A DNA stretch of 64,000 nt. Origin: Altererythrobacter sp. CAU 1644 (GTDB taxonomy: Bacteria > Pseudomonadota > Alphaproteobacteria > Sphingomonadales > Sphingomonadaceae). The notes below the pieces were generated by a model. It searched no databases. It was not told where the DNA came from and was given only the letters and a program-made list of their open reading frames with translations. The translations under genes were made by a program, and so were the position numbers. Within the stretch, counting starts at the first letter, position 1, and the number at the start of each line of letters is the position of its first letter. Positions 13,321 to 53,074 of this stretch are shown piece after piece. The stretch is from NCBI RefSeq assembly GCF_029623755.1, contig NZ_CP121106.1:1995001-2059000 (forward strand), written 5' to 3'.

Positions 13321-13340
13321 AAATTTGTCCGGACAAATTT
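13321..13340. promoter_or_regulatory. GntR-type operator, perfect 20-bp palindrome (motif A)
   Basis: AAATTTGTCCGGACAAATTT is a perfect 20-bp palindrome around the core TTGTCCGGACAA (13325-13336). It lies 13 bp before the ATG of the methyltransferase operon and in the divergent region with the cytochrome gene. The same core recurs at seven other control regions of the window. Confidence 0.85.
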
Positions 13341-13353
13341 TCAAAGGTGAATC

Positions 13354-14568
13354 ATGGCAACCGACCTGCCACCCCCATATACCGCGCTGACCAGACATCC
13401 AATGATGCCGCGGACGAATCATGACGAGGCAGCGCGGTTCAATTTCCTCACCCATTTCAATCGCTACCTCTCCGGTCCGATCGGAGGTGGCAACAGGCTG
13501 GCCTATGAAAAGCGGGTGCTTCCTGCCTTTCAGGCCGAGCATGGGCGCGATCCCCAGCACCGTTACGAGATTCGCGACGCGATGAACGAAGATTCGTGGC
13601 ACCGCATGTGGTCGGCGATGAAGCGCAACTCGATGGAAATGCGCCAGCACACCGGCCGACAGGCCGTGTTGCGGCAGCTCGATGAACTCGATGCCATGGC
13701 TGCACAGTTCAACCAGCACTCCGGCCAACTTGAGCTTGATCCCTCGATCGAGCAGCCCGAATACCAGACTGCAGTCGATATCCATTGCCAGCCCGGCGGC
13801 TATCACGGCGGCGAGCGTGAGAATGACGTCACCGTCGGCGCGAACTACGATGTCGGCCTGTTCGCGACCACCGGCGGCGCGCTGGGTGGGCTCAACGACG
13901 GCGGCGGTCAGGCGGTAGTCGAGTGGGCGAAGAAGGAGCGGCCCGACTGGTCGCCCAAGCGCATTCTCGATATCGGCTGCACCATCGGTCACAATGCAGT
14001 GCCAATTGCGCAGGCCTATCGCGATGCCGAGGTGATTGCGATCGACACCGCCGCATCCTCGCTTCGCTATGGCGCTGCCCGCGCGGCCGCCATGGGGGTC
14101 AAGAACATCAAGTTCATCCAGGCCTCGGGCGAAGACCTGTCGCGCTGGCCCGATGGCCATTTCGACTGGGTCCAGACGACCATGTTCCTGCATGAGCTGT
14201 CGGCCAAGGCCATGCCACGGATACTTTCCGAAGCGTATCGCGTGCTCGCCCCGGGTGGCCTGATCTTGCATATCGAGCAGCCGCAATATTCCGACGAGAT
14301 GCCGCTGTTCGAGCAGTTCATGCGCGACTGGGACGCGTTCAACAACAACGAGCCCTTCTGGTCGGCGATGCACGGGCAGGACATTTACGAGGCGATGGAG
14401 CGGGCTGGCTTCCCGCGCGACAGCCAGTTCAGCGCCGGCGTGCGGGCCGTGGTCGATCCCGAAATCTTCCCGCCGTCGCCCGACGATGGCGAGGAGGACT
14501 ACGGCCGCGCCGCCATCTGGAACGCCTATGGCGCCTGGAAGCCGCAAGCGCAGGCCGCCGCCGCATGA
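13354..14568 (+). CDS. SAM-dependent class I methyltransferase
   Basis: 404-aa protein whose residues from about 205 to 310 form a class I methyltransferase domain: motif I 'ILDIGCTIGHNAVPIA', 'EVIAIDTAASSLRYG', 'DWVQTTMFLHEL' and 'RVLAPGGLILHIEQP'. The N-terminal 200 residues have no feature I recognise. Its substrate is unknown. It is the first gene of a ten-gene operon and starts 13 bp after the GntR-type operator, so it is the most directly controlled gene of that unit. Its stop overlaps the next start (ATGA). It might methylate or demethylate the substrate early in catabolism. Confidence 0.85.
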   Translation: MATDLPPPYTALTRHPMMPRTNHDEAARFNFLTHFNRYLSGPIGGGNRLAYEKRVLPAFQAEHGRDPQHRYEIRDAMNEDSWHRMWSAMKRNSMEMRQHTGRQAVLRQLDELDAMAAQFNQHSGQLELDPSIEQPEYQTAVDIHCQPGGYHGGERENDVTVGANYDVGLFATTGGALGGLNDGGGQAVVEWAKKERPDWSPKRILDIGCTIGHNAVPIAQAYRDAEVIAIDTAASSLRYGAARAAAMGVKNIKFIQASGEDLSRWPDGHFDWVQTTMFLHELSAKAMPRILSEAYRVLAPGGLILHIEQPQYSDEMPLFEQFMRDWDAFNNNEPFWSAMHGQDIYEAMERAGFPRDSQFSAGVRAVVDPEIFPPSPDDGEEDYGRAAIWNAYGAWKPQAQAAAA

Positions 14569-14924
14569 GCGAGGATTTCGACTGGGTCGAGCGTTCGGGC
14601 AAGCGCGCCAAGGGCAAGCGGCCCGAGTTCTTCGACAGCGAGGCGCTCGACCGGCTCTATTCGGTGGTATTCGCGCTCGCCGCCGAAGTCTCTGCGCTGC
14701 GCGAGCGGCAGGACACGATCGAGCGTCTGCTCGATGCGAACGGGACGCTGCGGCGCGAGGATATCGAGAACTACGAGCCTGATCGCCAGGCCGGCGAAGA
14801 ACGCGGACTAGCGACGCGCGCCTACGTCAACCGGATCATGCGCGGCTTCCAGCAGGCCGTCGAGGCGATGGAGGCCGACGATCCGCCGATCATGGAGTGG
14901 GTCGAGAAACTTTCGAAGGAATAA
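14565..14924 (+). CDS. Small conserved hypothetical protein
   Basis: 119-aa acidic and charged protein without signal peptide or TM segment. The middle ('ALAAEVSALRERQDTIERLL', residues 36-55) looks like a short amphipathic helix or coiled coil. I do not recognise the family. The start ATG overlaps the methyltransferase stop by 4 bp, so translation is probably coupled and the product may be an accessory subunit of the methyltransferase. A 20-bp GC palindrome follows directly. Confidence 0.7.
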   Translation: MSEDFDWVERSGKRAKGKRPEFFDSEALDRLYSVVFALAAEVSALRERQDTIERLLDANGTLRREDIENYEPDRQAGEERGLATRAYVNRIMRGFQQAVEAMEADDPPIMEWVEKLSKE

Positions 14925-14925
14925 C

Positions 14926-14945
14926 TGCGCCGCCCGGGCGGCGCA
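14926..14945. repeat. Intercistronic 20-bp GC palindrome
   Basis: TGCGCCGCCCGGGCGGCGCA is a perfect palindrome between two genes of the same operon, 2 bp after the upstream stop and 13 bp before the next ATG. It would form a very stable RNA hairpin but lacks a following T tract. It may be an mRNA-processing or attenuation element that changes the ratio of soluble to membrane products. Confidence 0.6.
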
Positions 14946-14958
14946 TTGGGGAGGGACT

Positions 14959-15651
14959 ATGGAATTCCTGACAGCCAACGAACTCAGCATCCTGCGATGG
15001 ATCCACATTCTCGCCATGGTCTATTGGCTCGGCGGTGAATGGGGCGTCTTCCAGACGAGCTATCACGTTACCAATCGCAATCTTTCGCTCGAAGAGCGCA
15101 AGCGGCACATGGAAACCGCCTATCGGATCGACATCCTGGCGCGGACGGGAATCGTGCTGCTGCTCCCGCTGGGGCTGCACATGGGCAAGCTGTACGGCTT
15201 CATTCCGATGCTGGAGGGCGCCGGCATCTGGTGGATGTGGCTGTTCTTCGCGATCTGGCTGGCGATGACCTGGACCGCCTTCATCAAGCGCGAGACCGAC
15301 ATCGGTATCAAGGTGACGCGGACCGAGGAATTGCTGCGCTATCCGCTGATCGTGGCGCTGTTCGTGTTCGCCTTCATGGCGCTCGGCGGAAGCGGCCCGA
15401 TCGAGACCGCCGAAGGCAATCACTGGTATCCGTGGAAGATGATCCTCTACGCCTTCGCGCTGATCATCGGATTGTTCCTGCGGCTGGTCATGCGGCGCTG
15501 GACCGAGCGGTTTCGCATCCTCGCCCAGGGACCCGATGCCGCGCAGGAAGCGGCGCTGGAACGGGAGATCACCCAGGCGCGCATCTCCGCCTATATTTAC
15601 TGGATCACGATCGCCACGGTCTGTTTCCTCGGCGCCGTGAAGCCCTTCTGA
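14959..15651 (+). CDS. Integral membrane protein (CopD/HemJ-like), paralogue of the gene at 40309
   Basis: 230-aa membrane protein with about five TM helices. TM1 carries 'WIHILAMVYWLGGEWGVF', a His and a Trp-Leu-Gly typical of CopD/HemJ-like haem or metal membrane proteins. The C-terminus ends 'TVCFLGAVKPF'. The protein at 40309 has the same plan ('YAHLLLFVLWLGADVGVF' and 'TAFLGNVKPLP'), and both genes lie behind the same operator motif. Start ATG 14959 follows GGGGAGGG. It overlaps the following gene by 1 bp. A haem-binding electron-transfer role is inferred from the conserved His, not demonstrated. Confidence 0.72.
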   Translation: MEFLTANELSILRWIHILAMVYWLGGEWGVFQTSYHVTNRNLSLEERKRHMETAYRIDILARTGIVLLLPLGLHMGKLYGFIPMLEGAGIWWMWLFFAIWLAMTWTAFIKRETDIGIKVTRTEELLRYPLIVALFVFAFMALGGSGPIETAEGNHWYPWKMILYAFALIIGLFLRLVMRRWTERFRILAQGPDAAQEAALEREITQARISAYIYWITIATVCFLGAVKPF

Positions 15652-16799
15652 TGAAGGGCCTCGACCGCCGCGCGCTGTTGGGCGCCGGTGCCGGGATCGC
15701 GGCAGCGAGCGCCCTCGACTGGACGGCCTTTGCAGCGCCCGCAGCAGCAGCCGAACGCGGGCCGAACGGGATCGAGATGCGCTCGGACGGGAGCTATGCG
15801 ACCGTCCCGCTGGCGAAGGAAACGATCTCGCTCGCCGTGGCGCAGACCCGGGTCGTGCCGGTCGAGCTCGGCAACGTGGCTCAGGGTCGCCGCGCCAATG
15901 TCCAGCACATGCTCGATGTGATCGACATGGCGAACGGCTTCTCCGGGCCGAAGGACCTGATCCAGTTCCACGAGTTCCCCATCACCGGCTATCGCCACGT
16001 CTGGAACCTCGAGGATGCGCGCAAGATCGCGATCGAGATTCCGGGAGAGGAGACCGAACTCCTCGCCGCCAAGGCGCGCGAATATGGCAGCTGGATTGTG
16101 TTCGGCTCCTACGTACGCGACCCCGACTGGCCCAAGCGGCTGCTGTCTATCACCACGATCATCAGCGACAAGGGCGAGATCGTTGCCAAGGACTGGAAGG
16201 CGCGCAATCTCAAGGGCTTCTTCCCCGGCGGGCGTGAGCTCTTCACCACAACCATATACGATGTGCTCGACGAATATGTCGAGCGCTACGGCTGGGACCA
16301 CGTGGTGCCGGTGATCCGGACGCCGATCGGCAATCTCTTCACCAGTTCGTCGCAGCTCGAGCCGGAGTTGTTCCGCGCCGCGGCGATGAAGGGGGCAGAG
16401 ATCATGCTGCGCACGGCGAGCGGGAATTTCAACGAGATCGATATCCGCGCGACCTCGATGTACAACCGGGTCTATTCCACCATCGCCAACAACAGCGCTT
16501 CGCCCGAGAACCGCTACTATCTCGCCGATTCCAATCCCGGCCATGTCGGCATCGTCGGACCCGACGGCGAATTCATCGAGCAGTCCGAAACCGATTTCGA
16601 AACGCTCGTCTACGGCCGCATCCCGATCGCGAGCTTCCGCGCGCGTCATCGCCAGCCGATCGTCCACAGCGAATTGGTGATGCCGGTCTTCGACAAATAC
16701 CGCAGCCCTTACGGCCCGAACCTCATCGCCGATTACCAGCCGACCGATACCGAAGACGCTGGGCGCTACCTGCGCTCCAAGTCGCGCTGGCCGCAATAG
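15651..16799 (+). CDS. Tat-exported nitrilase-superfamily protein lacking the catalytic Cys
   Basis: 382-aa carbon-nitrogen hydrolase-fold protein with a Tat-type signal ('DRRALLGAGAGIAAASALDWTAFAAP'). The fold is close to aliphatic amidases: Glu108 in 'HEFPITG', Lys183 in 'GEIVAKDWKARN', and 'AMKGAE' downstream. E-to-K spacing is 75 residues, as in AmiE (E59, K134). At the nucleophile position, six residues before the conserved Pro-Glu, there is Ser232 ('TSSSQLEPELFR') instead of Cys. It is probably exported and either catalytically altered or non-enzymatic. ATG 15651 overlaps the membrane-protein stop. A second such protein is at 32938. Confidence 0.82.
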   Translation: MKGLDRRALLGAGAGIAAASALDWTAFAAPAAAAERGPNGIEMRSDGSYATVPLAKETISLAVAQTRVVPVELGNVAQGRRANVQHMLDVIDMANGFSGPKDLIQFHEFPITGYRHVWNLEDARKIAIEIPGEETELLAAKAREYGSWIVFGSYVRDPDWPKRLLSITTIISDKGEIVAKDWKARNLKGFFPGGRELFTTTIYDVLDEYVERYGWDHVVPVIRTPIGNLFTSSSQLEPELFRAAAMKGAEIMLRTASGNFNEIDIRATSMYNRVYSTIANNSASPENRYYLADSNPGHVGIVGPDGEFIEQSETDFETLVYGRIPIASFRARHRQPIVHSELVMPVFDKYRSPYGPNLIADYQPTDTEDAGRYLRSKSRWPQ

Positions 16800-16809
16800 G
16801 AGAGACGCA

Positions 16810-17115
16810 TTGCCTGCCTACATGATCGTTACTGCAAGCATTGCCGATCGCGATGCCTTCATATCGGGTTATGGCGCAGCGGCAGGGGCGCTGGTCGAGA
16901 AATTCGGCGGCAAATATGTCCTGCGCGGGCCGGGTGCCGAATTGCTCGAAGGGGGATTTGGCGAGGGCGCTTCGATGGTGATTTCCGAATGGCCCGACAA
17001 GGATGCGGCGCGCGCCTTCTGGAACAGCCCCGAATATGCCGAGGCGAAGAAGCTGCGCGAAGGCATTGCCGATTGCCAGGTGCTGCTGATCGAGGCTCCG
17101 AAGATCAATGGTTGA
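16810..17115 (+). CDS. DUF1330 family protein
   Basis: 101-aa DUF1330 protein (dimeric alpha+beta ferredoxin-like barrel): 'YMIVTASIADRDAFISGY', 'KYVLRGPGAELLEGG', 'MVISEWPDKDAARAFWNSPEYAEAKKLR'. The function of the family is not established; members accompany catabolic and secondary-metabolite genes. The start is TTG at 16810 with AGGAGAG six bases upstream. It overlaps the next VOC gene by 8 bp. A diverged, exported relative is at 31732. Confidence 0.83.
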   Translation: MPAYMIVTASIADRDAFISGYGAAAGALVEKFGGKYVLRGPGAELLEGGFGEGASMVISEWPDKDAARAFWNSPEYAEAKKLREGIADCQVLLIEAPKING

Positions 17116-17584
17116 TATCGTCAAGCGCACAACGCTGATGGTCCGCGATGCCGAACGGGCAGCGCACTGGTACGAGGATGTCTTCGGCATGAGCCGCTGG
17201 ATGGACACGCCGTTCACGCTCTCGGGGACGCAGCTCGCCGCGGGCAAGAAGGGCGACAAGACCCGCCTTGTCATCATGAAGGCCGAGCATGACGAGATCG
17301 GCATGCTCGGCCTCTTGCAATGGGTCGATCCTCCGCGCGCGGACGTACCAGCAGAATTGCCGACAGAGATTCCGTTCGGAACGCCGATATTCGTGGTTGC
17401 CTCGCAGGATACTGCCGGCGCGGTGGAGCGGGCGCGCGCCTCAGGATCGCGCATTCACAGCGAGCCGACCGAATGGTCGGTCACCGGTGCCGACGGCCGG
17501 GTCAAGGACATGCTCGGCGCCAGCTTCTGGGACCTCGATGGATACTTCTTCGAGGTGAACCAGGTGGTGCGGATCAACGACTGA
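17108..17584 (+). CDS. VOC-family protein (cytosolic)
   Basis: 158-aa single glyoxalase/VOC domain without signal peptide. It begins 'VKRTTLMVRDAERAAHWYEDVFGM' and contains 'TRLVIMKAEHDEIGMLGLLQWVDPP', a segment shared with the VOC lipoproteins at 9282 and 21261, so these three form one subfamily. VOC enzymes include isomerases, epimerases, lyases and ring-cleaving dioxygenases, and the reaction here is unknown. It overlaps both neighbours and is part of the 13354 operon. Confidence 0.82.
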   Translation: MVDIVKRTTLMVRDAERAAHWYEDVFGMSRWMDTPFTLSGTQLAAGKKGDKTRLVIMKAEHDEIGMLGLLQWVDPPRADVPAELPTEIPFGTPIFVVASQDTAGAVERARASGSRIHSEPTEWSVTGADGRVKDMLGASFWDLDGYFFEVNQVVRIND

Positions 17585-18672
17585 TGGCTTCCGCCTCGCC
17601 CCTGTCCGAATTCGATCCGCTGGCGAACCGGCCGATAGACGAGGATGCCAACTACCAGTGGCGCATCGCGCGTCGCCCCCAGGGCAATGTGCGCCCGGAA
17701 GATTTCGAATGGCGGGTCGTGCCGATCCCCGAGCCGGGCGAGGGCGAAGTGCTGCTTCGCACGCTCTATCTCGGCCTCGCGCCGGTTATGCGGATGTATA
17801 TGGCGGGGACTGCTAACACCGGCGACGCCAGGCTCGAGATTGGTGATTTGATCCACGGTCGCGGCGTCGCGCAGGTGGTCAAGTCGCGCCATCCGGATTG
17901 GGCGGAAGGCGAAATCGTGCAGGGGCAGATCGGCTGGCAGACGTGGAAGGTCAGCCGCATGACTCCCCAGGAGAAGTTCTTCCGCATGCCGCGCAACGGC
18001 CATCCGGCCGCCCTTGGTGCAGGCGTTCTTGGGATGACAGGCCTGTCCGCGCACGCCGGCCTGTTCGCTTGCGGCGACCCGCGCGCAGGCGACCGCATGG
18101 TGCTTTCGGGCGCGGCAGGCGGCGTCGGATCGATGGTCAGCCAACTGGCCGCCAACGTCGTCGGCTGCGACGTGGTCGGGATGGCAGGCGGACCTGAGAA
18201 ATGTGCCTTCATTCTCGATCATGGCTGCTCGGCCGCGATCGACTACAAGGCCGACGATATCGCAGCGAAGCTCGACGAACTGCGGCCCGACGGGATCGAT
18301 CTCTATTTCGACAATGTCGGTGGAGAGACGCTGGCGGCCTGCCTCGAACGGTTGCGGATGAACGCGCGGATCGTGCTGTGCGGATCGATCAGCGAATATA
18401 CGCGCGACGAACCGTTCGGCCTCGCCAACTATACCCGCCTGCGGGGCACCGACAGCCTGATGCGCGGCTTTTTCGTCTACAATCACCTCGACCGCTGGGA
18501 AGCGGTGATGGGCGAGATGGCGGGCTGGATCGAGGACGGGAAGCTCAAGCCGGTGCAGGACATCGCCGAAGGGTTCCAGAACATGCCACGCGCGCTCGCC
18601 AATCTCTATCACGGCGCGAATGTCGGGGTGCAGTGCTGCAGCGTTCGCGGCGAACCGGAGGAATGGCTGTGA
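17584..18672 (+). CDS. Zinc-independent NADP-dependent MDR oxidoreductase (CurA/PTGR-like)
   Basis: 362-aa medium-chain reductase of the leukotriene B4 12-hydroxydehydrogenase/CurA type. It has the nucleotide-binding 'VLSGAAGGVGSMVSQLA' and 'DLYFDNVGGETL', 'RIVLCGSISEY' segments. These enzymes reduce alpha,beta-unsaturated carbonyls with NADPH. An insert at residues 110-140 ('IGWQTWKVSRMTPQEKFFRM') is typical. The ATG overlaps the VOC stop as TGATG. In this operon it probably reduces an unsaturated ketone or enoate intermediate. Confidence 0.88.
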   Translation: MASASPLSEFDPLANRPIDEDANYQWRIARRPQGNVRPEDFEWRVVPIPEPGEGEVLLRTLYLGLAPVMRMYMAGTANTGDARLEIGDLIHGRGVAQVVKSRHPDWAEGEIVQGQIGWQTWKVSRMTPQEKFFRMPRNGHPAALGAGVLGMTGLSAHAGLFACGDPRAGDRMVLSGAAGGVGSMVSQLAANVVGCDVVGMAGGPEKCAFILDHGCSAAIDYKADDIAAKLDELRPDGIDLYFDNVGGETLAACLERLRMNARIVLCGSISEYTRDEPFGLANYTRLRGTDSLMRGFFVYNHLDRWEAVMGEMAGWIEDGKLKPVQDIAEGFQNMPRALANLYHGANVGVQCCSVRGEPEEWL

Positions 18673-19124
18673 CCGAGAAACCCCCCGTCCGATTTCAGCG
18701 GGCCAATTTCGTTGTCGCCGATCTCGATCGGGCCCTGACCTTCTATGAGGGTGTGCTCGGCTTCGAAGTCACGGTGCGCCTCGGGCATAATCCCGACAGC
18801 TATTCCTTCCCGGTCTTCGACATTCCGGGCGATGCGACGCTCGGTTTTGCGATCCTCTCCTTGCCGGGGCAGCCGCGTGTGATGGCCTTGACCGAAATCG
18901 GCACCATCTCCCTGGCGCCGGTCCCACACCCGCGGCGCGGCGCGATCGTGCTTGAAACGCAGGATCCCGATGAAGTGATGCGGGCCAGCCGCGCGCTAGG
19001 GTTGCATGTGTATGAGGAAGAGGTCTTGAAGACGCATGACGGTCGGATCGGGCGGGAGATCGGCATCGTCGATTTCGATGACAATCTGGTGGTGATCTAT
19101 CTCATACCCGAGACCGCAGCTTGA
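18669..19124 (+). CDS. VOC-family protein
   Basis: 151-aa glyoxalase/VOC-fold protein ('RFQRANFVVADLDRALTFYEGVLGFEV', 'IGIVDFDDNLVVIYLIPE'). I take GTG 18669 as start: it overlaps the upstream TGA (GTGA) and has GGAGGA six bases before it, whereas ATG 18663 has no spacing to that site. No signal peptide. It differs from the 17108 subfamily. Unknown reaction on an operon intermediate. Confidence 0.78.
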   Translation: MTEKPPVRFQRANFVVADLDRALTFYEGVLGFEVTVRLGHNPDSYSFPVFDIPGDATLGFAILSLPGQPRVMALTEIGTISLAPVPHPRRGAIVLETQDPDEVMRASRALGLHVYEEEVLKTHDGRIGREIGIVDFDDNLVVIYLIPETAA

Positions 19125-20473
19125 GCGCGCCCGAACAGGCCCCCGCTGCGCCCGGCCGCGAGGCGAACCCCTATCCGTCGGCTTTCGCGAGTTGGGCAAT
19201 CGTCGTTCTGTTGACGATCGGCTACATCTTCAGTTTCATTGATCGCTATATCCTCGGCCTGTTGATCGAGCCGATCAAGGCAGAGTTCGGCCTGTCCGAC
19301 AGTTCGATCGGCTGGCTCCTCAGCGCCTTTACCTGGGTCTACGGCTTCGTCGGGATCTTCATGGGCTGGCTGATCGATCGCGGTCGGCGCACGTGGATCG
19401 TGGCGATCGGCATGGCGCTGTGGTCTGCAGCGACCATGGCGACCGGACTGGCCAAGAACTTCGCGCAGCTCTTCGTCGCGCGAATGGGCGTGGGTGTGGG
19501 TGAGGCGACGCTGAGCCCCGCAACATTCTCGATCATCGGCGACAGCTTCCCGCCCGAGAAGCGGGGCAAGCCGATCGCCTTCTACTCCTCTGCGCTGCCA
19601 ATCGGCGCCGGGCTCGCCTCGCTCCTTTCAGGCGCGATCATCGCCTGGACTGCAGCGAGCGGCAGCCAGAGCGTTCCGCTGCTGGGCGAGCTTTCGCCCT
19701 GGCGCTTCACGCTGCTGCTGGTAGGATTTCCGGGCCTGGTATTCTCGGTGCTGTTCTTCTTCGTCAGGGAGCCCGTGCGGCGCCCTGCGCAGGCCGCTCC
19801 CGAAGTGATCGGGGGCAGCGGTTTCCTCGACGCGCTACGATATATCCGCGATAACTTTCTGCTATATTTCGGTTTCGTCATGGTGGTCTGCTGCATGACC
19901 GCGATCGCCTACAGCCAGGGCTTCCTCGCGCCGACATTCGAGCGGACCTGGGGCTGGTCGCCGCAGACCTACGCCTTCGTCAATGGCGTCGCCCTGCTGA
20001 TCATCGGCCCGCTCAACATGATGCTGATGGGCACGATTTCGGATCGCTGGACCTCGAAAGGCGTGCCCGACGCGGCCTTGCGGTTGATGTACATCGGTTT
20101 CTTCATCATGGTGCCGACGGCGGCGCTGCCGATGTTCATGCCGAGCGGCGTCACCGCCTTTGCAGTGCTGTGCATCAACACGGTGGGTATCGGCATTGTC
20201 TCCGCCATCGGCGTCACGGCACTGCTGGTCATCACGCCCGCGCAGGTACGTGGCCAGATCGTTGCACTGTACTACCTCGCGATCAGCTGGTTCGGTTCGC
20301 TGGGGCCGATCGTCGTCGGAGAACTGTCGAGCAGGGTGTTCGGGGAGGGCGAGCTTCGCCTGGCCGTTGCCGCAGTGCCGATCATCTTCGCGATAGTTCC
20401 ACTGGCGCTGATGCCGGTAACCAAGCGGCTTTATCGCCAGCAGATCGCGCGGCTCGGGCTGGGTGCCGAGTGA
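19121..20473 (+). CDS. MFS transporter
   Basis: 450-aa major facilitator protein with 12 predicted TM helices. The loop after TM2 reads 'GWLIDRGRRTW', the MFS G-x-x-x-D-R signature. It resembles the aromatic-acid/anion-cation symporter-like MFS proteins ('Spinster-like') common in sphingomonad catabolic clusters. It probably imports the substrate or exports an intermediate across the inner membrane. The TTG start at 19121 overlaps the VOC stop by 4 bp. Confidence 0.9.
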   Translation: MSAPEQAPAAPGREANPYPSAFASWAIVVLLTIGYIFSFIDRYILGLLIEPIKAEFGLSDSSIGWLLSAFTWVYGFVGIFMGWLIDRGRRTWIVAIGMALWSAATMATGLAKNFAQLFVARMGVGVGEATLSPATFSIIGDSFPPEKRGKPIAFYSSALPIGAGLASLLSGAIIAWTAASGSQSVPLLGELSPWRFTLLLVGFPGLVFSVLFFFVREPVRRPAQAAPEVIGGSGFLDALRYIRDNFLLYFGFVMVVCCMTAIAYSQGFLAPTFERTWGWSPQTYAFVNGVALLIIGPLNMMLMGTISDRWTSKGVPDAALRLMYIGFFIMVPTAALPMFMPSGVTAFAVLCINTVGIGIVSAIGVTALLVITPAQVRGQIVALYYLAISWFGSLGPIVVGELSSRVFGEGELRLAVAAVPIIFAIVPLALMPVTKRLYRQQIARLGLGAE

Positions 20474-41043: not shown

Positions 41044-41055
41044 TTGTCCGGACAA
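41044..41055. promoter_or_regulatory. GntR-type operator TTGTCCGGACAA (motif A)
   Basis: Exact core, 44 bp upstream of the TonB receptor ATG at 41100. It forms a tandem pair with 41030-41041. Confidence 0.83.
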
Positions 41056-45093: not shown

Positions 45094-45100
45094 CGCAGGA

Positions 45101-46065: not shown

Positions 46066-46077
46066 TTGTCCGGACAA
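46066..46077. promoter_or_regulatory. GntR-type operator TTGTCCGGACAA (motif A)
   Basis: Exact core, 35 bp upstream of the DUF1838 start, in the 146-bp divergent region. Its centre is 39 bp from the copy at 46105-46116, nearly the same geometry as at 40236/40277. Confidence 0.83.
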
Positions 46078-46104: not shown

Positions 46105-46116
46105 TTGTCCGGACAA
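46105..46116. promoter_or_regulatory. GntR-type operator TTGTCCGGACAA (motif A)
   Basis: Exact core, extended to ATTTGTCCGGACAAAT (46103-46118). It lies 6 bp downstream of a -35-like TTGACT (46093-46098) pointing toward the CitE-like gene, so a bound repressor would cover the promoter spacer and -10 region. Confidence 0.83.
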
Positions 46117-46176: not shown

Positions 46177-47001
46177 ATGTTTGCTGCCTCCAGCCTGTTG
46201 TTTGTCCCCGGTTCGCGTCCGGACCGCTTCGCCAAGGCGGCGGCTGCGGGTGCGGGCCTGGTCGTGATCGACCTCGAGGACGCGGTCGGTCCGGCAGACA
46301 AGGAGACGGCGCGCGAGGCGGCGCTCGAACAGGCGGCGCAGGAGCCGGGCAGGTTTGCGGTTCGCATCAATGCGGTCACGACTGCGGCAGGGATACGCGA
46401 CCTCGCAGCTCTTACTGTTGCTGCAACCTTGCCGCGCACGCTGATGGTGCCGATGGTCGAAAGCGCGACCGAGCTGGACGTGGTGGCCGGGGCGCTGGGC
46501 GATCGCTGCCCCGAACTCATTCCCCTGATCGAGACTCCGCGGGGATTGCGCGATGCGCTCGCGATCGTCGGGCACGACAAGGTCTCGGCGCTGATGTTCG
46601 GCGGCGCGGATTTTTCGGGTGAACTGCGCGTTGCGGTCTCGTGGGAACCGCTGCTCGCGGCCCGCCAGGCGCTGGTGCTGGCGTGCGCCGAGGCGCGCAA
46701 GCCGCTGATCGATGTGCCATTTATCCATCTCGACGACGAGGAGGGGCTGGTGCGGGAATGCGTGCAGGCGCGCGCCATCGGCATTACGGCCAAGGCGGCA
46801 ATCCATCCCCGCCAGGTGCCGACGATCGAGGCGACGTTCTCTCCCACGGCGGAAGAGATTGCCGAAGCCAGGGAAGCCTTGCAGGTGTACGAGGAGAACG
46901 GCGGCAAGGCCGTTCGCCACAAGGGGCGCATGCTGGAAGCCCCGATGATCAAGACCTATCGCGCGATCATTGCGCGAAGCGAGGGGCAAGCGAATGCGTG
47001 A
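46177..47001 (+). CDS. CitE-like HpcH/HpaI CoA-ester lyase
   Basis: 274-aa citrate-lyase beta-subunit-like TIM-barrel protein: 'SSLLFVPGSRPDRFAKAAAAGAGLVVIDLEDAVGPADKETAR', 'PLIETPRGLRDA', 'ALMFGGADFSGEL', 'GITAKAAIHPRQVPTI'. Members cleave malyl-, citramalyl- or 3-hydroxy-acyl-CoA with Mg2+. Start uncertain: ATG 46177 fits family N-termini, while ATG 46150 adds nine residues. It heads an operon with MaoC hydratase, acyl-CoA dehydrogenase and two CoA-transferases, pointing to citramalyl-CoA-type cleavage into pyruvate and acetyl-CoA (inference). Confidence 0.88.
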   Translation: MFAASSLLFVPGSRPDRFAKAAAAGAGLVVIDLEDAVGPADKETAREAALEQAAQEPGRFAVRINAVTTAAGIRDLAALTVAATLPRTLMVPMVESATELDVVAGALGDRCPELIPLIETPRGLRDALAIVGHDKVSALMFGGADFSGELRVAVSWEPLLAARQALVLACAEARKPLIDVPFIHLDDEEGLVRECVQARAIGITAKAAIHPRQVPTIEATFSPTAEEIAEAREALQVYEENGGKAVRHKGRMLEAPMIKTYRAIIARSEGQANA

Positions 47002-47503
47002 CAGTTATGTGGAAGTCTCCCCCGGCAGGTTCCGCGAAGTGCAGGGACGCTACTTCGAGGATTTCGAAGTGGGGCACGTCTACGAGCACCGGCCCGGCCG
47101 GACGATTACCGATGCCGACAACGTGTGGTTCACGCTGCTGACGATGAACACTCATCCGGCGCATTTCGACTATGAGCTGTCGAAGGACACCGAATTCGGC
47201 AAGCCACTGGTCGTCAGCCCGCTCACCATCGCGCTGATGACAGGCATGAGCGTCTCCGACACCAGCGGCAAGGCAATCGCGAACCTCGGCTGGGACGAGG
47301 TGCGGATGACCAAGCCGTTGTTCGTCGGGGATACGCTCTATGCCGAAAGCGAAGTGCTCGAGAAACGCGAGAGCAAGAGCCGTCCGGAACAGGGCATCGT
47401 GACCTTCCGGACCACCGGCAAGAACCAGCATGGCGAGGTCGTGAGCCACTACAAGCGCAGCGTGCTCGTGTGGAAGCGCGGGCACGGCAATCTCGACGAT
47501 TGA
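46994..47503 (+). CDS. MaoC-family enoyl-CoA hydratase/dehydratase
   Basis: 169-aa single hot-dog MaoC protein: 'RYFEDFEVGHVYEHRPGRTITDADNVWFTLLTMNTHPAHFDYEL' contains the catalytic Asp and His pattern (D...N..H), then 'GKPLVVSPLTIALMTGMS'. Relatives next to CitE-like lyases hydrate mesaconyl-CoA or related unsaturated acyl-CoA. ATG 46994 with GAGGGG upstream overlaps the lyase by 8 bp. Hydration of an unsaturated dicarboxylyl-CoA followed by lyase cleavage is the natural reading of the pair. Confidence 0.9.
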   Translation: MRDSYVEVSPGRFREVQGRYFEDFEVGHVYEHRPGRTITDADNVWFTLLTMNTHPAHFDYELSKDTEFGKPLVVSPLTIALMTGMSVSDTSGKAIANLGWDEVRMTKPLFVGDTLYAESEVLEKRESKSRPEQGIVTFRTTGKNQHGEVVSHYKRSVLVWKRGHGNLDD

Positions 47504-47515
47504 GGGATCAGGATC

Positions 47516-48700
47516 ATGGCAACCGCAGCGGCATTGGAAAACCAGATACGGACGATCGATCCGGACGAGGAACGCGCCTTCCTCGACGCGATCGACCGCT
47601 GGCTGGAGCGCGAGGTGATCCCGGTCATCCAGCACCACGATCACGGCGATATCTGGCCCGAGAAGCTGGTCGAACAGATGGCCGAGATGGGTCTGTTCGG
47701 CGCCACCATCGGGCAGGAATACGGTGGCCTCGGCCTGCCTGCCACGACCTATGCCAAGATCGTGATGCGCATTTCCAGCTACTGGATGGCGATCACCGGC
47801 ATCTTCAATTCGCACCTCATCATGGCGGCCGCGGTCGAGCGCTTCGGCACGCCGGAGCAGAAGGCCAAGTGGCTGCCCAAGTTCGCCACCGGCGAAATTC
47901 GCGGCGGGCTGGCGCTGACCGAACCCAACGCCGGCACCGACCTGCAGGCGATCCGCAGCGTCGCGGTGCGAGATGGCGACGACTACGTGATCAACGGCAC
48001 CAAGACGTGGATTTCTAACGCGCTCAACGGCTCATGCTTCGCCATGCTGGTGAAGACCGATCCCAAGGCTGAGCCGCGCTACAAGGGCATGAGCCTGTTC
48101 ATCGCCGACAAGCGGGATGGCCTCACCAACGGCAAGAAATTCGACAAGCTTGGCTACAAGGCGATCGACAGCGCCGAACTGATCATGGAGGACTACCGCA
48201 TCCCCGCCGACCAGCTCATCGGTGGGGTCGAGGGGCAGGGCTTCTTCCAGGCGACCGGCGGGCTCGAGCTGGGCCGGATCAATGTCGCTGCGCGCGGCGT
48301 CGGGCTTGCCGAAGGCTCGCTGCGGCTGGCGACCGAATATGCGCAACAGCGCGAGACGATGGGCAAGCCTATCGCGGAGCACCAGGCGATCCAGCTCAAG
48401 ATCGGCGAGATGGCGACCCGGGCGCGGGCTGCGCGGCTCCTGACGCTTGATGCCGCCGAAGCCTATGACCGGGGCGAGCGCTGCGACAAGGAAGCGGGCA
48501 TGGCGAAGTTCTTCGCCTCCGAAGCCGCGGTCGAAAACAGCCAGGAGGCGATGCGCGTCTATGGCGGCTACTCCTATTCCAAGGAGTACGACATCGAGCG
48601 CTATTATCGCGACAGCATGCTGATGTGTATCGGGGAGGGAACCAACGAGATGCAGCGGATCATCATCGCCAAGCAGCACTTCAAAGAAAACCCGATCTAG
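47516..48700 (+). CDS. Acyl-CoA dehydrogenase
   Basis: 394-aa acyl-CoA dehydrogenase of normal length. 'GGLALTEPNAGTDLQAIRS' and 'NGTKTWISNA' bind FAD and substrate; the catalytic base is the Glu in 'MLMCIGEGTNEMQRIIIAKQ', the position used by short-chain and glutaryl-type enzymes. It introduces a C2-C3 double bond into an acyl-CoA. It starts 12 bp after the MaoC stop in the 46177 operon and would supply the unsaturated acyl-CoA for the MaoC hydratase. Confidence 0.92.
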   Translation: MATAAALENQIRTIDPDEERAFLDAIDRWLEREVIPVIQHHDHGDIWPEKLVEQMAEMGLFGATIGQEYGGLGLPATTYAKIVMRISSYWMAITGIFNSHLIMAAAVERFGTPEQKAKWLPKFATGEIRGGLALTEPNAGTDLQAIRSVAVRDGDDYVINGTKTWISNALNGSCFAMLVKTDPKAEPRYKGMSLFIADKRDGLTNGKKFDKLGYKAIDSAELIMEDYRIPADQLIGGVEGQGFFQATGGLELGRINVAARGVGLAEGSLRLATEYAQQRETMGKPIAEHQAIQLKIGEMATRARAARLLTLDAAEAYDRGERCDKEAGMAKFFASEAAVENSQEAMRVYGGYSYSKEYDIERYYRDSMLMCIGEGTNEMQRIIIAKQHFKENPI

Positions 48701-48712
48701 CCGGTGGGCGAT

Positions 48713-49930
48713 ATGCACCTTCCGCTTTCCGGCTTCCGCGTCATCAGCGCGGAACAATACGGCGCGGGCCCCTATGGCACGATGTTTCTCGCGCAGATGG
48801 GCGCCGAGGTTATCAAGATCGAACCGCCCGGCAAGCAGGGCGCCGATGGCAGGCGCGTGGGCGCAGGCGATACGGCGCGCGCAGTCGGGCCTCATTTCCT
48901 GCGCGAAGGCGAGAGCACCTATTTTCAGAGCTTCAATCTCAACAAGCGCTCGCTGACGCTCGATCTCGGGAGCGAGCAGGGCCAGGGGATCCTGCGCAAG
49001 CTCGCAGCGACCTGCGACGTCGTCGCCAACAATATGCGCGGCGATCTGCCCGCGCGGCTCGGGCTGGATTACGCCTCGTTGAAAGACGTCAATCCGGCGA
49101 TCGTCTGCGCGCATCTGTCGGCCTATGGCCGCGACAACGCCCGCGCCAAATGGCCAGGCTATGACTATCTGATGCAGGCCGAAGCGGGCTATTGCCAAAT
49201 GACCGGCGAACCGGGCGGCGATCCCCAGCGGATGGGCCTGTCGATGGTCGATTTCATCACCGGCACGATCTTCTGCATCGGCCTGCTCGGCGCGCTGGTC
49301 GATGCGCAGCGCAGCGGCAAGGGGCGGGACGTCGATACCGACCTGCTCAGCGCGGCGGTCCACCAAACGAGCTATCCGGCCCTGTGGTACATGAATCACG
49401 GCGACGAGACACAGCGCACCCCACGGTCCGCCCATCCAACTGCCACGCCGAGCCAGATGTTCAAGGCTGCCGACGGCTGGATGTTCGTGATGTGCCAGCT
49501 GCCCAAGTTCTGGGACATTCTGCTCGAGCGGCTCGGGCGCGAGGACCTGCGCGCCGACCCGCGCTTCGCCAGCAACGCGCTGCGCCTGCAGAACCGCGCG
49601 GTGCTGACCGAGTTGCTCGACGCGCATTTCAGCCAACAACCGATGGCGCATTGGCAGGAGCTGCTTGCCGGTTTCGTGCCGGTTGCTCCGGTCTATGAGC
49701 TGGGCGCGGCGCTCGACAATCCGTGGCTCGAGGAAATCGGAATGCGCGACCGCGTCGCCCATCCTGACAATCCGGACCTGCAGGTGCTGGCGAGCCCGCT
49801 CAAGTTCGATGGCAAGCGCCCGCCCAATCGTGCTGCGCCGCTGCTGGGGGCCGACAGCGACGCCTTGCTCGAACAGCTTGGCTACGGGCCTGAAGAAATC
49901 GACTCGCTGCGCGCCAATGGTGTTATCTGA
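48713..49930 (+). CDS. CaiB/BaiF family CoA-transferase
   Basis: 405-aa family III CoA-transferase. 'LSGFRVISAEQYGAGPYGTMFLAQMGAEVIKIEPPGKQGADGRRV' and the catalytic Asp in 'GLSMVDFITGTIFCIGLLGAL' are conserved. Start ATG 48713 is chosen; GTG 48704 would add three residues. It lies between the acyl-CoA dehydrogenase and a second CoA-transferase (5 bp apart). The two may work on different acids, or one may perform an intramolecular CoA transfer as in mesaconyl-CoA transferase; this is not decidable from sequence. Confidence 0.9.
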   Translation: MHLPLSGFRVISAEQYGAGPYGTMFLAQMGAEVIKIEPPGKQGADGRRVGAGDTARAVGPHFLREGESTYFQSFNLNKRSLTLDLGSEQGQGILRKLAATCDVVANNMRGDLPARLGLDYASLKDVNPAIVCAHLSAYGRDNARAKWPGYDYLMQAEAGYCQMTGEPGGDPQRMGLSMVDFITGTIFCIGLLGALVDAQRSGKGRDVDTDLLSAAVHQTSYPALWYMNHGDETQRTPRSAHPTATPSQMFKAADGWMFVMCQLPKFWDILLERLGREDLRADPRFASNALRLQNRAVLTELLDAHFSQQPMAHWQELLAGFVPVAPVYELGAALDNPWLEEIGMRDRVAHPDNPDLQVLASPLKFDGKRPPNRAAPLLGADSDALLEQLGYGPEEIDSLRANGVI

Positions 49931-49935
49931 GAGCC

Positions 49936-51039
49936 ATGGGAAAACTTAGCGGAATCAGAGTCGTCGACCTTACCCAGTTCCTGCCCGGCCCGATGATGAC
50001 GGTGATGATGGCCGATCAGGGTGCAGAGGTGATCAAGGTCGAACCGGCGGCCGGGGATCCGGCGCGGGTGCAGGCGCCATTCGATACATATGACGGTGCA
50101 GAGCAATCGGTCTGGTTTGCCAACCTCAATCGCGGCAAGTCGAGCCAGGTGCTCGATCTCAAGAGCGAGCAGGGCAAAGCGCGCCTGCGCGATCTGGTCG
50201 CCGGCGCGGATGTGTTCGTCGAGGGGTTTCGCCCCGGCGTGATGAAGCGGCTCGGCTTCGATTACGACAGCGTAAGGGCGATCAAGCCTGACATCGTCTA
50301 TTGTTCGATTTCCGCCTTTGGGCAGGAGGGCGCGCTGGCGCACCATCCCGCGCACGACATGGCAGTGCAGGCGCTGGCCGGGTTCCTGTCGGTCAATGAC
50401 GGGCCGGATGGCACGCCGGTGGTCCCAGGCGCGCCCAGTGCGGACATGGCCGCAGGGCTGACGGCGCTATCGGCCGTGCTGATGGCGCTGGTCGGGCGCG
50501 AGCGGACGGGCGAGGGCGCCTATATCGATTGCGCCATGTTCGACAGCATGCTGCCGTGGTGCGCGCATACCGCCGGGAGCGCCATAGCAGGCGGCAAAAG
50601 CCCGAAATCGCAGTCGCAGCGCTCGCTTGGCGGCGCGGGCTTTTACCAGGTCTACGAGACGAGCGACGGAAAACATGTCGTGCTGGGTGGGCGCGAGCTT
50701 CATTTCGCGCGCAACCTCCTCACTGCACTGGGGCGCGAGGACCTGATCCCCATCGCCGACCAGCCAGCAGGCGAACAGGGCGAGTTGATCGCTTTCCTGC
50801 GCGAGAGTTTTGCGACGAAATCCCGCGCCGAATGGGTCGACTGGTTTGCCGACAAGGATGTCGCTTTCTCGCCCGTGCTCGACTTTCGCGAAGCATTCGA
50901 CGAGCCGCATATCGGCGAGCGCGGCCTGTTGGTCGAAGGTGCAGGTGGAGGCAGGCACATCGCTCCGCCGATCCGGTTTGCGGGTGAAGATTGGTCGCCC
51001 GGGAAGGTGCCGGAGCTGGATTCGGGTGGGCCCGGATGA
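49936..51039 (+). CDS. CaiB/BaiF family CoA-transferase
   Basis: 367-aa family III CoA-transferase of the alpha-methylacyl-CoA racemase/L-carnitine transferase group: 'LSGIRVVDLTQFLPGPMMTVMMADQGAEVIKVEP', 'NLNRGKSSQVLDLKSEQGKARL', catalytic Asp in 'GAPSADMAAGLTALSAVLMAL'. It is shorter than the neighbour at 48713 and not a recent duplicate. Last gene of the 46177 operon; it converges with the GntR gene, 8 bp between stops. Confidence 0.9.
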   Translation: MGKLSGIRVVDLTQFLPGPMMTVMMADQGAEVIKVEPAAGDPARVQAPFDTYDGAEQSVWFANLNRGKSSQVLDLKSEQGKARLRDLVAGADVFVEGFRPGVMKRLGFDYDSVRAIKPDIVYCSISAFGQEGALAHHPAHDMAVQALAGFLSVNDGPDGTPVVPGAPSADMAAGLTALSAVLMALVGRERTGEGAYIDCAMFDSMLPWCAHTAGSAIAGGKSPKSQSQRSLGGAGFYQVYETSDGKHVVLGGRELHFARNLLTALGREDLIPIADQPAGEQGELIAFLRESFATKSRAEWVDWFADKDVAFSPVLDFREAFDEPHIGERGLLVEGAGGGRHIAPPIRFAGEDWSPGKVPELDSGGPG

Positions 51040-51047
51040 ACCGCGCT

Positions 51048-51806
51048 TCAGCTATCGACGTCGATATGCATCGAATAAGCGAAGCGATCGCCGGGATGGT
51101 GGCTGACCGAAATCTCGAACACGCTGCCCTGGTTGTCGATGTAGCAGCGCAGGATCTGCAGCACCGGCGCGCCTTCCTCGATCTCGAGCGCCTTGGCGGT
51201 CGCGGCATCAGCCGCCAGCGCCTGGATATCCTGCGTCACGGTCGCCGCACTGACGCCGGTGAGTTTCTCGATCTGGCTGAACAGGGTCTGCGAACTGGCA
51301 TTGAGGTCGAGCGAACCCGCCTCGACGCCCAGCCGTTCGTGAATATAGGCATCGGTCGCCGCGATCGGGAGCTCGCCGAAGCCCTGCCGGCGAACGCCGC
51401 TGAACTTGGTCCAGACCCCGCTGGTGTCCGATGCAATCTGTTCGGCAATGGCTTCGGGCAGGGTGCTCGTTCCGGCCTCGGCATAGATCACCGCGCTGCC
51501 GCGAGCATATTGCAGCAGTTCGCCGACATTCGAGAGCGGCTGGTGCAGCGCGCCGCCGCGCGCCGCCGCCGGCTGGACGGTCGTGCCGGACCCCCGCTTG
51601 CGCTGGATCAGGCCTTCCGCTTCGAGCCTCCGCAACGCTTCCCGCACGGTGAAGCGGCTCACGTCATGCTGCTTGCACAGCGAGGTTTCGGTCGGAAACT
51701 GCGTGCCATTGGCAAACTTGCCGCCAAGGATCGCCTCGCGAAGTTCGCCCGCGAGCTGCAGATAGCGAGGAATTTTGGCTGCTTTGCGGGCAGGCTTGGT
51801 GGCCAA
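51048..51806 (-). CDS. GntR/HutC-family transcriptional regulator
   Basis: 252-aa GntR regulator of the HutC subfamily. Winged HTH at residues 13-78 ('IPRYLQLAGELREAILGGKFANGTQFPTE', 'HDVSRFTVREALRRLEAEGL'), then a UTRA ligand-binding domain (about 100-250). The TTG start has GGAG six bases upstream. It is the only GntR regulator in the window, and lies centrally beside operons that carry TTGTCCGGACAA. The TTGT-N4-ACAA symmetry fits a GntR dimer. I infer it is the repressor of this regulon, released by a pathway intermediate bound to UTRA. Confidence 0.88.
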   Translation of the reverse strand: MATKPARKAAKIPRYLQLAGELREAILGGKFANGTQFPTETSLCKQHDVSRFTVREALRRLEAEGLIQRKRGSGTTVQPAAARGGALHQPLSNVGELLQYARGSAVIYAEAGTSTLPEAIAEQIASDTSGVWTKFSGVRRQGFGELPIAATDAYIHERLGVEAGSLDLNASSQTLFSQIEKLTGVSAATVTQDIQALAADAATAKALEIEEGAPVLQILRCYIDNQGSVFEISVSHHPGDRFAYSMHIDVDS

Positions 51807-51847
51807 GTGAGACTCCGTCGAACCGTTCTAGGGCTTGGAGCGGCGGC

Positions 51848-53074
51848 ATGAGCGACCCGCTGCTCGCAATACTTGTCCGGACCTTAGCGCGGCCCGTCGG
51901 CAAAAGCGAGCGCCAGCGCGCGCGTCTCCACCTTCTCGACTGGCTTGCCTGTGTTGCCGGCGCCCGCGACACCGAAGCGGGCCATCTCGGCAGCGCGATT
52001 TCCTCCCAGCCGTGGGAACGGGCGACCTATCTCGGCAATGTGCTCGAGATGGACGATGTGCACCGCACCGCCTTGCTCCATCCCGGCCCGGTCGTGTGGC
52101 CCGCGGCGATGAGCATGGCCAGCGCATCGATCGAGCAGCGGCTCGACGCAGCGGCGCGCGGTTACGAGGCGATGATCGCGATCGGTGCAGCGTTCGATGC
52201 GCATCACTATGCTCACTGGCACCCGACCGCGACCATGGGCGTGTTCGGTGCTTGCGCGGCGTTCGGTTCGCTGATCGGTTTCGCCCCGATCGAGTATGCC
52301 AATGCGCTTGGCAACGCCGGATCGGTGGCTGGCGGATTGTGGCACATGCGACACGACGATGTGCTGACCAAGCAGTGGCATATCTATCATGCAGTGCGAA
52401 CCGGCAGGGATGCCGCGCTGCATGTCCACTATGGCGCGACCGGGCCGCAAGGCGTTCTCGAAGGTCCGCAGGGGCTGTTTGCGGCGATGACCGAGACACC
52501 GGGTGACCTCGCATCGAACGGAGACGGCTGGCTGATCGATCAGGTCAGTTTCAAGCCCTGGGCCGCCTGCCGCCATGCGCATCCGGCCATCGATGCGGCG
52601 ATGGAACTGCGCCAGGCCGGCAAACTGGAGGCGCCCTTTGCGGTCGAAACCTACGCCGATGCGCTGGCCTTTTGCGACCGGCCCGATCCGAAGACCGAAC
52701 TCGATGCCAAGTTCTCGCTGCAGCATGCCGTGGCGGTAGTGGCGGATGGCAGAAGTGCCGAGCCGCAGGATTTCACCGAGGACGCGATTTCCGCGCTCGC
52801 CGGGCTGCGTGCGCAGGTGACGGTTGCTGAAGATCCGGGGATCACTGCCCGCTATCCGGCGCATTTCGGCGCGCGGGTCAACGGGCTCGAACTGGTCGAC
52901 ACGCTCGGCGATCCCGAGCGACCGGTCGGCGAGAAGGAGATTGTCGCCAAGCTGCACAGCCTCGCCAAATGGGGTGGACTGACCGAGGCGCAGGCAGAGC
53001 GGGCGGTCTCGTTGGCCCTACACGGCGACGACGCTGCTGCACTCGACAGTCTGCTCGAGGAGTGGACGCGGTGA
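51848..53074 (+). CDS. MmgE/PrpD family protein (copy 1)
   Basis: 408-aa MmgE/PrpD-fold protein, the family of 2-methylcitrate dehydratase, cis-aconitate decarboxylase and iminodisuccinate epimerase. Motifs 'HRTALLHPGPVVWPAAM', 'HWHPTATMGVFGAC' and 'VSFKPWAACRHAHPAIDAAM' are present. It acts on tricarboxylate- or dicarboxylate-like substrates; the exact reaction is unknown. First gene of an eleven-gene operon, divergent from GntR with only 41 bp between. A degenerate operator sits inside its first codons (51873-51884). Confidence 0.85.
   Translation: MSDPLLAILVRTLARPVGKSERQRARLHLLDWLACVAGARDTEAGHLGSAISSQPWERATYLGNVLEMDDVHRTALLHPGPVVWPAAMSMASASIEQRLDAAARGYEAMIAIGAAFDAHHYAHWHPTATMGVFGACAAFGSLIGFAPIEYANALGNAGSVAGGLWHMRHDDVLTKQWHIYHAVRTGRDAALHVHYGATGPQGVLEGPQGLFAAMTETPGDLASNGDGWLIDQVSFKPWAACRHAHPAIDAAMELRQAGKLEAPFAVETYADALAFCDRPDPKTELDAKFSLQHAVAVVADGRSAEPQDFTEDAISALAGLRAQVTVAEDPGITARYPAHFGARVNGLELVDTLGDPERPVGEKEIVAKLHSLAKWGGLTEAQAERAVSLALHGDDAAALDSLLEEWTR
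51873..51884. promoter_or_regulatory. Degenerate GntR-type operator TTGTCCGGACCT (10/12)
   Basis: Ten of twelve positions match motif A. It lies 67 bp upstream of the GntR start and inside the 5' end of the MmgE/PrpD gene. The location suits autoregulation of GntR, but two mismatches on one half and its place in coding sequence leave chance possible. Confidence 0.45.

Follow-up and report, generated by a model that had tools for sequence, protein, structure and literature searches.

A repeated palindromic operator and a HutC-type GntR protein mark a probable regulon on a conserved catabolic island of sphingomonads

A stretch of 64,000 nucleotides from the chromosome of Altererythrobacter sp. 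CAU 1644 (assembly GCF_029623755.1, contig NZ_CP121106.1, positions 1,995,001 to 2,059,000), referred to below as the window and numbered from its first letter, carries a series of catabolic transcription units in whose control regions the motif TTGTCCGGACAA recurs. The locus raises the question of whether these copies are the operators of one regulon, which regulator reads them and what compound the encoded enzymes degrade. An initial annotation had joined the units, and probably the gene of their GntR regulator, into a single regulon, and this proposal has been followed up here by motif searches, comparisons among relatives and assignment of the proteins to Pfam and NCBIfam families. The units are designated A to H and K, together with a block J, and their genes are numbered within each.

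The six exact copies of TTGTCCGGACAA reported earlier were all recovered in a motif scan. They lie at 13325..13336 (operator 1, a perfect 20-bp palindrome as had been described, between a cytochrome c gene and unit A), 27302..27313 (operator 2, in the divergent promoter of units B and C), 40236..40247 (operator 3a, in the divergent promoter of units D and E), 41044..41055 (operator 4b, before unit F), 46066..46077 (operator 5a, in the divergent promoter of units G and H) and 46105..46116 (operator 5b, in the control region of units G and H). The two copies with one mismatch are also present, at 40277..40288 (operator 3b, in the control region of units D and E) and 41030..41041 (operator 4a, before unit F), and all eight are intergenic, in agreement with their assignment to control regions. 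Two-mismatch copies occur in addition at 5822 and at 51873..51884, the latter a doubtful operator within the 5' end of the PrpD-like gene J1 beside the GntR gene. At two mismatches or fewer the window thus holds 10 matches, against a mean of 1.56 and a largest value of 5 in 100 shuffles.

A genome-wide search, set beforehand as a check, rejected the possibility that the motif is equally frequent at random across the chromosome. This single contig of 3,241,744 bp contains seven exact copies, all within one block of 50.8 kb (1.6% of the chromosome), six of them in the window and the seventh at the window-equivalent position 64097, 97 bp beyond the window end, whereas 0.117 copies are expected for the whole genome from base composition and the motif read backwards occurs once exactly and twice at one mismatch or fewer. 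The seventh copy is also intergenic, and intergenic DNA makes up 3.1% of the 51-gene block as drawn. One-mismatch copies number three genome-wide, two in the window and one at 3148978 which was rejected as a target because it lies inside an open reading frame of 573 amino acids. When 109 sites selected at one mismatch or fewer are pooled, their consensus extends to AATTTGTCCGGACAAATT, and a reading of the motif as a mobile repeat was discarded because the flanks beyond the 18-bp palindrome are not shared.

Sites in relatives, a comparison which the initial annotation had envisaged, were examined in 15 of the 22 further GntR genomes, in island stretches chosen for clustered sites; hits were counted when they reached 40% identity and 300 bp of sequence was available upstream, and a site was taken as a match with at most one mismatch. 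Operators recur at orthologous promoters and are rare before interior genes. Thus, a site is found upstream of B1 in 12 of 13 relatives, C1 in 12 of 12, H1 in 13 of 13, E1 in 12 of 14, G1 in 11 of 14, F1 in 5 of 5 and J9 in 6 of 8, and none is found within these limits upstream of B2, B3, B4, B5, C3, H3, H4, H5 or J2 to J7. K1 relatives are present in 8 of 16 relative stretches and, when coordinates are compared, all eight have a site within about 150 bp. In a wider set, comprising 80 of 416 loci carrying the C enzymes that were taken forward for locus comparisons, B1 is preceded by a site in 64 of 67 cases and C1 in 64 of 78. The same blocks recur throughout the 15 genomes, mostly with H1 to H5, the GntR gene and J1 onwards in that order, and the units constitute one conserved catabolic island of about 50 genes in many sphingomonad relatives. 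Two Steroidobacteraceae loci (L081 and L092) are among the 80, and their genomes encode the GntR protein at 47–48% identity.

The proposed reader of the operator is encoded at 51048..51806 on the reverse strand. Its earlier description as a HutC-type GntR protein is borne out by PF00392 (74.9 bits, cut-off 27) and the UTRA domain PF07702 (57.1 bits, cut-off 23.8); it falls below the NCBIfam equivalog cut-offs for all matches listed, including that for HutC (TIGR02018, 87 against 220) and the best of them, TransRegRv0792c (91.6 against 400). Its distribution was compared with that of the motif in 199 genomes of the same family, including the window's own, in which a match at E <= 1e-30 was taken as the GntR gene. 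The exact motif occurs in 36 of these genomes and the GntR gene in 23; all 23 carry the motif, 21 of them in two or more copies, while among the 176 genomes lacking the gene the motif is never found twice and is present as a single copy in 13 (Fisher p 3e-21 for presence, 2e-26 for two or more copies). Summed over the 23 genomes there are 140 copies, of which 36 are in a single genome, G072.

A second comparison was directed at 47 of the 80 loci, all carrying C1-C2-C3 and mostly on long contigs, including 11 of the 15 loci without a site at one mismatch or fewer, the operator being sought only within the locus stretch. The GntR gene is present in 36 of the 47 genomes; both gene and operator occur in 35 and neither in 10, with the gene alone in one (L017) and the operator alone in one metagenome-assembled genome (L031), at p 2e-8. 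Since all 47 genomes have these enzymes and operator and GntR gene agree in 45 of them, the presence of the operator is tied more closely to the regulator than to the enzymes. This test overlaps with the first, at least three genomes, recognised by identical GntR coordinates, being common to both, and independence between them is therefore incomplete.

That GntR reads the operator is supported by this co-occurrence, by the orthologous promoters and by a recognition helix, SRFTVREAL, that is near-invariant among the orthologues (24 of 26 rows aligned there), and on these comparative grounds the pairing is very probably correct. The competing explanation, that another regulator reads the sites and GntR is a passenger of the island, finds some backing in a gene of LysR type, judged by sight, at 11726-12664 and in L031, where the operator occurs and no GntR gene was detected. 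Against it, motif multiplicity follows GntR over the 199 genomes, the motif is absent as well from 10 of the 11 loci that have the enzymes without GntR, and the palindrome suits a GntR dimer as generally understood, and we regard it as highly improbable. Known regulons of the HutC/UTRA group (HutC, TreR, NagR and DasR) are alike in combining a winged helix-turn-helix with a UTRA domain, in having catabolic targets nearby and in employing short palindromes with TTGT...ACAA half-sites; the present system differs in its CCGG centre and in comprising about nine units on one island.

Several observations nevertheless weigh against such a regulon, or restrict it. The co-occurrence could stem from the island having been inherited as a whole; as the sole cause this is opposed by the 10 genomes that have the enzymes and neither GntR nor operator. 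Single relatives have a site before interior-type genes (C2 in 1 of 12, C4 in 1 of 13, D3 in 1 of 15, H2 in 1 of 14 and J8 in 1 of 11), D6 is preceded by a site in 4 of 14, A3 in 4 of 7 and A5 in 4 of 8, for the most part in relatives with another gene order, and the count for A1 is no higher than 6 of 14; the partial counts at A1, D6, A3 and A5 reflect the different places that these genes occupy across relatives. The compact layout proposed initially is common and not general, because in 7 of the 23 GntR genomes the contig with the gene carries no exact copy up to 60 kb away from it. Among these seven, G022 is a fragmented assembly; the four copies in G038 are scattered, G132 and G101 have one distant copy each, and three genomes of one genus have two copies each, away from GntR. 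In G030, with no copy near GntR, a copy still adjoins D1- and E1-like genes. The 36 exact 12-mer copies of G072 are spread over a 3.4-Mb genome. Finally, block J is without a good operator of its own here, and the direction of control, which is probably repression rather than activation, is assumed from the general habit of the family.

The suggestion that GntR is among its own targets has fared less well than its pairing with the operator. Here only the two-mismatch copy inside J1 is available, and a site precedes the GntR gene in 5 of 15 relatives and J1 in 3 of 14, so that autoregulation is possible. Block J is a conserved member of the island, with at most a doubtful operator of its own.

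Some further observations concern the surveyed genomes. The ten copies of the motif sampled in G072 share no flanks and are surrounded by unrelated, GC-rich sequence of coding appearance, and G140, of the same genus, has no exact copy. G060 carries, besides a full-length GntR gene, a second copy split into two overlapping frames (C1:135068-135813). A link with host photosynthesis was also considered, reaction-centre genes exceeding the cut-off in 9 of the 23 GntR genomes and in 24 of the 176 others (p 0.005), and was given little weight because three of the nine belong to a single genus and such genes are lacking in the window's own genome.

As to the extent of the regulon, the initial annotation spoke of seven units in its title and listed eight, which stand as listed, and its estimate of about 32 genes was too low. 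Units A to H contain 37 genes, the divergent cytochrome c gene brings the number to 38, the three genes of unit K behind the 64097 operator to 41, and the GntR gene with block J to the 51-gene block. The cytochrome c gene (12758..13231, reverse strand, divergent from unit A), which had been named as a possible member and may still be one, encodes one CxxCH motif, PF00034 (30.7 bits, cut-off 21.3) and, by sight, a lipoprotein-like N-terminus; a relative adjoins A1 in G060 and lies near E1 in G004.

Unit A (13354..21264, forward) encodes a methyltransferase-like protein, a small partner, a membrane protein (A3), a nitrilase-family protein with a Tat-like N-terminus (A4), a DUF1330 protein, a VOC protein, a curcumin-reductase-like MDR protein, a second VOC protein, an MFS carrier and an alpha/beta hydrolase. 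Unit B (21261..27294, reverse) comprises genes for an alpha/beta hydrolase, LeuC-like and LeuD-like subunits, an HMG-CoA-lyase-like enzyme, a class III CoA-transferase and a lipoprotein-like VOC protein, and unit C (27382..32202, forward) those for an isochorismatase-family hydrolase, two PuuE-like CE4 proteins, an aldehyde dehydrogenase, an unknown protein and a DUF1330 protein with a signal-like N-terminus. Unit D (32199..40167, reverse) carries a TonB receptor gene together with those for a VOC protein with a signal-like N-terminus, an MFS carrier, an FAD-linked oxidase, a nitrilase-family protein and a DUF3108-like protein below the cut-off. Units E (40309..40992, forward) and F (41100..43631, forward) consist of genes for a membrane protein related to A3 and for a second TonB receptor, respectively, and unit G (43690..46030, reverse) encodes a DUF1838 protein and an FAD amine oxidase, both with export-like N-termini. 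Unit H (46177..51039, forward) specifies a RipC-like C-C lyase, a RipB-like MaoC hydratase, an acyl-CoA dehydrogenase and two class III CoA-transferases. Beyond the GntR gene, block J (51848..61256, forward) encodes two MmgE/PrpD proteins, a PaaK-like ligase, an amidase, an SDR protein, a third CE4 protein, an enoyl-CoA hydratase, a VOC protein and an unknown protein with a signal-like N-terminus, and unit K (61574..64000, continuing to 64058, reverse) an unknown protein with a signal-like N-terminus, a Zn-type dehydrogenase and a cupin.

In Pfam and NCBIfam terms the island therefore holds two TonB receptors, two MFS carriers, an FAD-linked oxidase, an FAD amine oxidase and several VOC proteins; among the hydrolases are two nitrilase-family, one amidase, one isochorismatase-family and three PuuE-like CE4 proteins; and LeuC- and LeuD-like subunits, three class III CoA-transferases, RipB- and RipC-like enzymes and two PrpD-family proteins complete the set, together with the HMG-CoA-lyase-family protein, which exceeds a subfamily cut-off (274 bits against 246). 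Eight proteins appear export-like by their N-termini (A4, B6, C6, D2, G1, G2, K1 and J9), the signals having been judged by eye, without a signal-peptide program, and several gene starts having been set by eye as well. A3 (14959-15651) and E1 (40309-40992) are distant paralogues, 24% identical, of a helical membrane family in which one histidine (H16 of A3) is invariant among 19 aligned proteins.

The earlier statement that this combination matches no pathway holds for the island as a whole, but its core is readable as cyclic-imide catabolism. On balance we favour the explanation that the whole represents a GntR-controlled island for a large N-heterocycle with an imide core, and a single substrate is presumably the inducer. 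The HutC-type GntR would bind the palindrome AATTTGTCCGGACAAATT in five control regions within the window and in another immediately beyond its end, most likely repressing the nine units A to H and K until a pathway compound binds the UTRA domain. TonB receptors would import the large N-heterocycle into the periplasm, where exported oxidases, VOC proteins and hydrolases may cut it into small cyclic imides for transfer inside by the MFS carriers. The CE4 pair C2/C3 would then open the imide to the half-amide, from which the isochorismatase-family enzyme C1 would release ammonia to give a disubstituted maleate. Hydration to the malate by the LeuCD-type enzyme, activation to a 2-methyl-3-alkylmalyl-CoA by the class III CoA-transferase and cleavage by the HMG-CoA-lyase-like enzyme to pyruvate and an acyl-CoA could follow, while unit H and block J would process a second, itaconate-like branch. 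For the sequence of steps from imide through maleate to malate, as read from the encoded proteins, we see about an even chance.

Substituted maleates and malates are established substrates of LeuCD-family enzymes. The most conserved neighbours on the island are B5-B4-B3-B2-B1, the operator and C1-C2-C3, and LeuC-like genes are found in 69 of the 80 loci. The CE4 domain PF01522 is recognised in C2 (38.2 bits), C3 (35.3) and J6 (47.4), at a cut-off of 23.1, and the closest named solved relative of C2 and C3 is the allantoinase PuuE (3cl6; 94 and 91 bits), an unnamed entry, 1z7a, being level with it. B2 exceeds the cut-off of the LeuC subfamily NF009116 (635 against 531) and not that of the LeuC equivalog TIGR00170 (524 against 560).

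Additional evidence comes from plasmids, C2 relatives being present on 47 plasmid records of which seven were examined. On the Sphingomonas plasmid pJE1, the C1-C2-C3 trio lies beside two LeuCD pairs and an enzyme of the methylisocitrate/dimethylmalate-lyase family, together with relatives of the CoA-transferase and HMG-CoA lyase (60% and 58% identity) and of D4, D6, K3 and J8. A Burkholderia plasmid has the trio with a hydratase of another subfamily (TIGR02087 LeuD/DmdB, 143.5 against 108.95, homoaconitase-type models also being above cut-off) and beside another methylisocitrate-lyase relative. That different genes of the same chemistry adjoin the same trio renders hydration and cleavage after the imide step more likely. 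Three of the seven plasmids have a methylisocitrate/dimethylmalate-lyase-family gene next to the trio; such a gene was found in 2 of the 80 loci, and this island has none. No plasmid match to GntR was found at E <= 1e-40, and a scan of six plasmids for the operator at up to two mismatches gave one match, with two mismatches, far from the trio.

The enzyme assignments also present difficulties for the proposed route. No enzyme reaches an equivalog cut-off for the proposed reactions: C1, C2 and C3 all fall far below those of PuuE and RutB, C2 and C3 scoring 110 and 108 bits against 424.6 for PuuE. B3 passes the leucine-pathway LeuD model TIGR00171 (173 against 116), as a result of which a plain isopropylmalate-type activity is a possibility, and 11 of the 80 loci lack a LeuC-like gene on their stretch, some of them short contigs. 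Moreover, on three of the seven plasmids the neighbours of the trio, or of the CE4 pair, are instead ligase, oxoprolinase-type or amidase genes, and LeuCD is absent from the stretch examined.

Comparable chemistry is found in several known systems. In nicotinate fermentation a LeuCD-family dimethylmaleate hydratase likewise hydrates a disubstituted maleate, and dimethylmalate lyase then yields pyruvate, while here cleavage would probably proceed via a CoA ester and the HMG-CoA-lyase-like enzyme. Itaconate degradation (Rip/Ict-Ich-Ccl) resembles unit H in bringing together a CoA-transferase, a MaoC hydratase and an HpcH-type C-C lyase in one operon, but the RipB and RipC equivalog cut-offs are not reached (236 against 340 and 215 against 375), which makes the island proteins relatives and not members, and unit H has an extra acyl-CoA dehydrogenase and a second CoA-transferase. 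A CE4-type cyclic imidase followed by an amidase is also described for fungal nicotinate catabolism, in which HxnM of Aspergillus, characterised by deletion and described as CE4-like and related to PuuE, precedes HxnN; the ring is different, and the accessible portion of that paper does not mention LeuCD, HMG-CoA-lyase-like or TonB components (PMC9304392).

The many C-N hydrolases, the two TonB receptors and the exported oxidases suggest a large multi-ring substrate, and one candidate, which we consider unlikely though worth stating, is that the island is dedicated to tetrapyrroles (bilins and the degradation products of chlorophyll or heme), from which sphingomonads and some Steroidobacteraceae would draw carbon and nitrogen. 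Periplasmic oxidation would then yield maleimides, for example hematinic acid and methylvinylmaleimide, to be opened by the three CE4 enzymes and amidases, and the maleate of hematinic acid would finally be split to pyruvate and glutaryl-CoA. This maleate is a one-carbon homologue of 2-methyl-cis-aconitate, and such homology could explain the recruitment of aconitase-, PrpD- and, on plasmids, methylisocitrate-lyase-family enzymes. Hematinic acid is reported to arise from the oxidative cleavage of heme, bilirubin and chlorophyll and also as a product of ChuS, a bacterial heme protein (PMC10343206). A better supported alternative, still short of an even chance, is that the same core serves a non-tetrapyrrole N-heterocycle with an imide or lactam group, such as an alkaloid, a pyridine, a vitamin-type compound or a man-made imide. 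The trio occurs in smaller clusters, on plasmids pJE1 and TomTYG65 and on those of Acidiphilium, Burkholderia, Comamonas and Salipiger, so that the imide step is not bound to one large substrate; an Agrobacterium plasmid has a CE4 pair with an amidase, and the fungal nicotinate pathway employs a cyclic imidase of CE4 type (PMC9304392). Two TonB receptors and several export-type enzymes seem, however, excessive for a small ring, as do seven genes of C-N hydrolase families (C1, C2, C3, J6, J4, D5 and A4) with an eighth just beyond, and no pyridine- or purine-specific hydroxylase was recognised in the Pfam and NCBIfam scans of the island proteins.

Two other explanations were considered. It is doubtful that the island merely joins separate pathways, for nitrogen compounds, itaconate-like acids and aromatics, under one regulator with a shared inducer or niche: such an assembly would fit with the presence of three CoA-transferases, of two lyases and of VOC proteins numbering at least five, and with the shuffling or loss of modules among relatives, but the same modules with one operator stay together in 14 relatives, themselves chosen for clustered sites. 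Even less credible is the notion that the CE4 and isochorismatase-family enzymes act on ureides of the allantoin or carbamoyl type in a purine-like pathway. PuuE allantoinase and N-carbamoylsarcosine amidohydrolase are among the closest solved structures, and against this stand the scores far under the PuuE and RutB cut-offs and the presence of LeuCD-type, HMG-CoA-lyase-like, PrpD-like and CoA-transferase genes, for which ureide breakdown has no established use.

Literature searches found nothing on the operator or the pathway, the exact 12-mer appearing in one paper, a stem-cell study, and no catabolic route for hematinic acid turned up. The word DUF1838 was absent from the 20 of 79 papers that were surveyed for it, although a paper containing that word alone would not have shown in the search. 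What is new is the island and its pathway, the regulator being of a type already known. A regulon so sharply marked, with nine units, one operator and one regulator, gives genome-wide access to a catabolic route of which no description was found, and it places poorly known families, including DUF1838, the A3/E1 membrane proteins, the tandem CE4 hydrolases and the export-type VOC proteins, in one testable pathway. If tetrapyrroles were the substrate, the island would also provide a candidate answer to the bacterial fate of the maleimide-type end products of their breakdown, which the papers found leave open.

Both flanks of the island carry genes related to its contents. Beyond the 64097 operator and reading toward it, a second isochorismatase-like gene (window-equivalent 64169-64813, reverse) is about 39% identical to the plasmid relative of C1. 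To the left, at 8383-11706 (reverse) and 3352-5796 (forward), are two further DUF1838 paralogues, 41–46% identical to G1, a TonB receptor and an alpha/beta hydrolase; this cluster includes the LysR-type gene, has no operator at one mismatch or fewer, and is perhaps a related cluster under another regulator.

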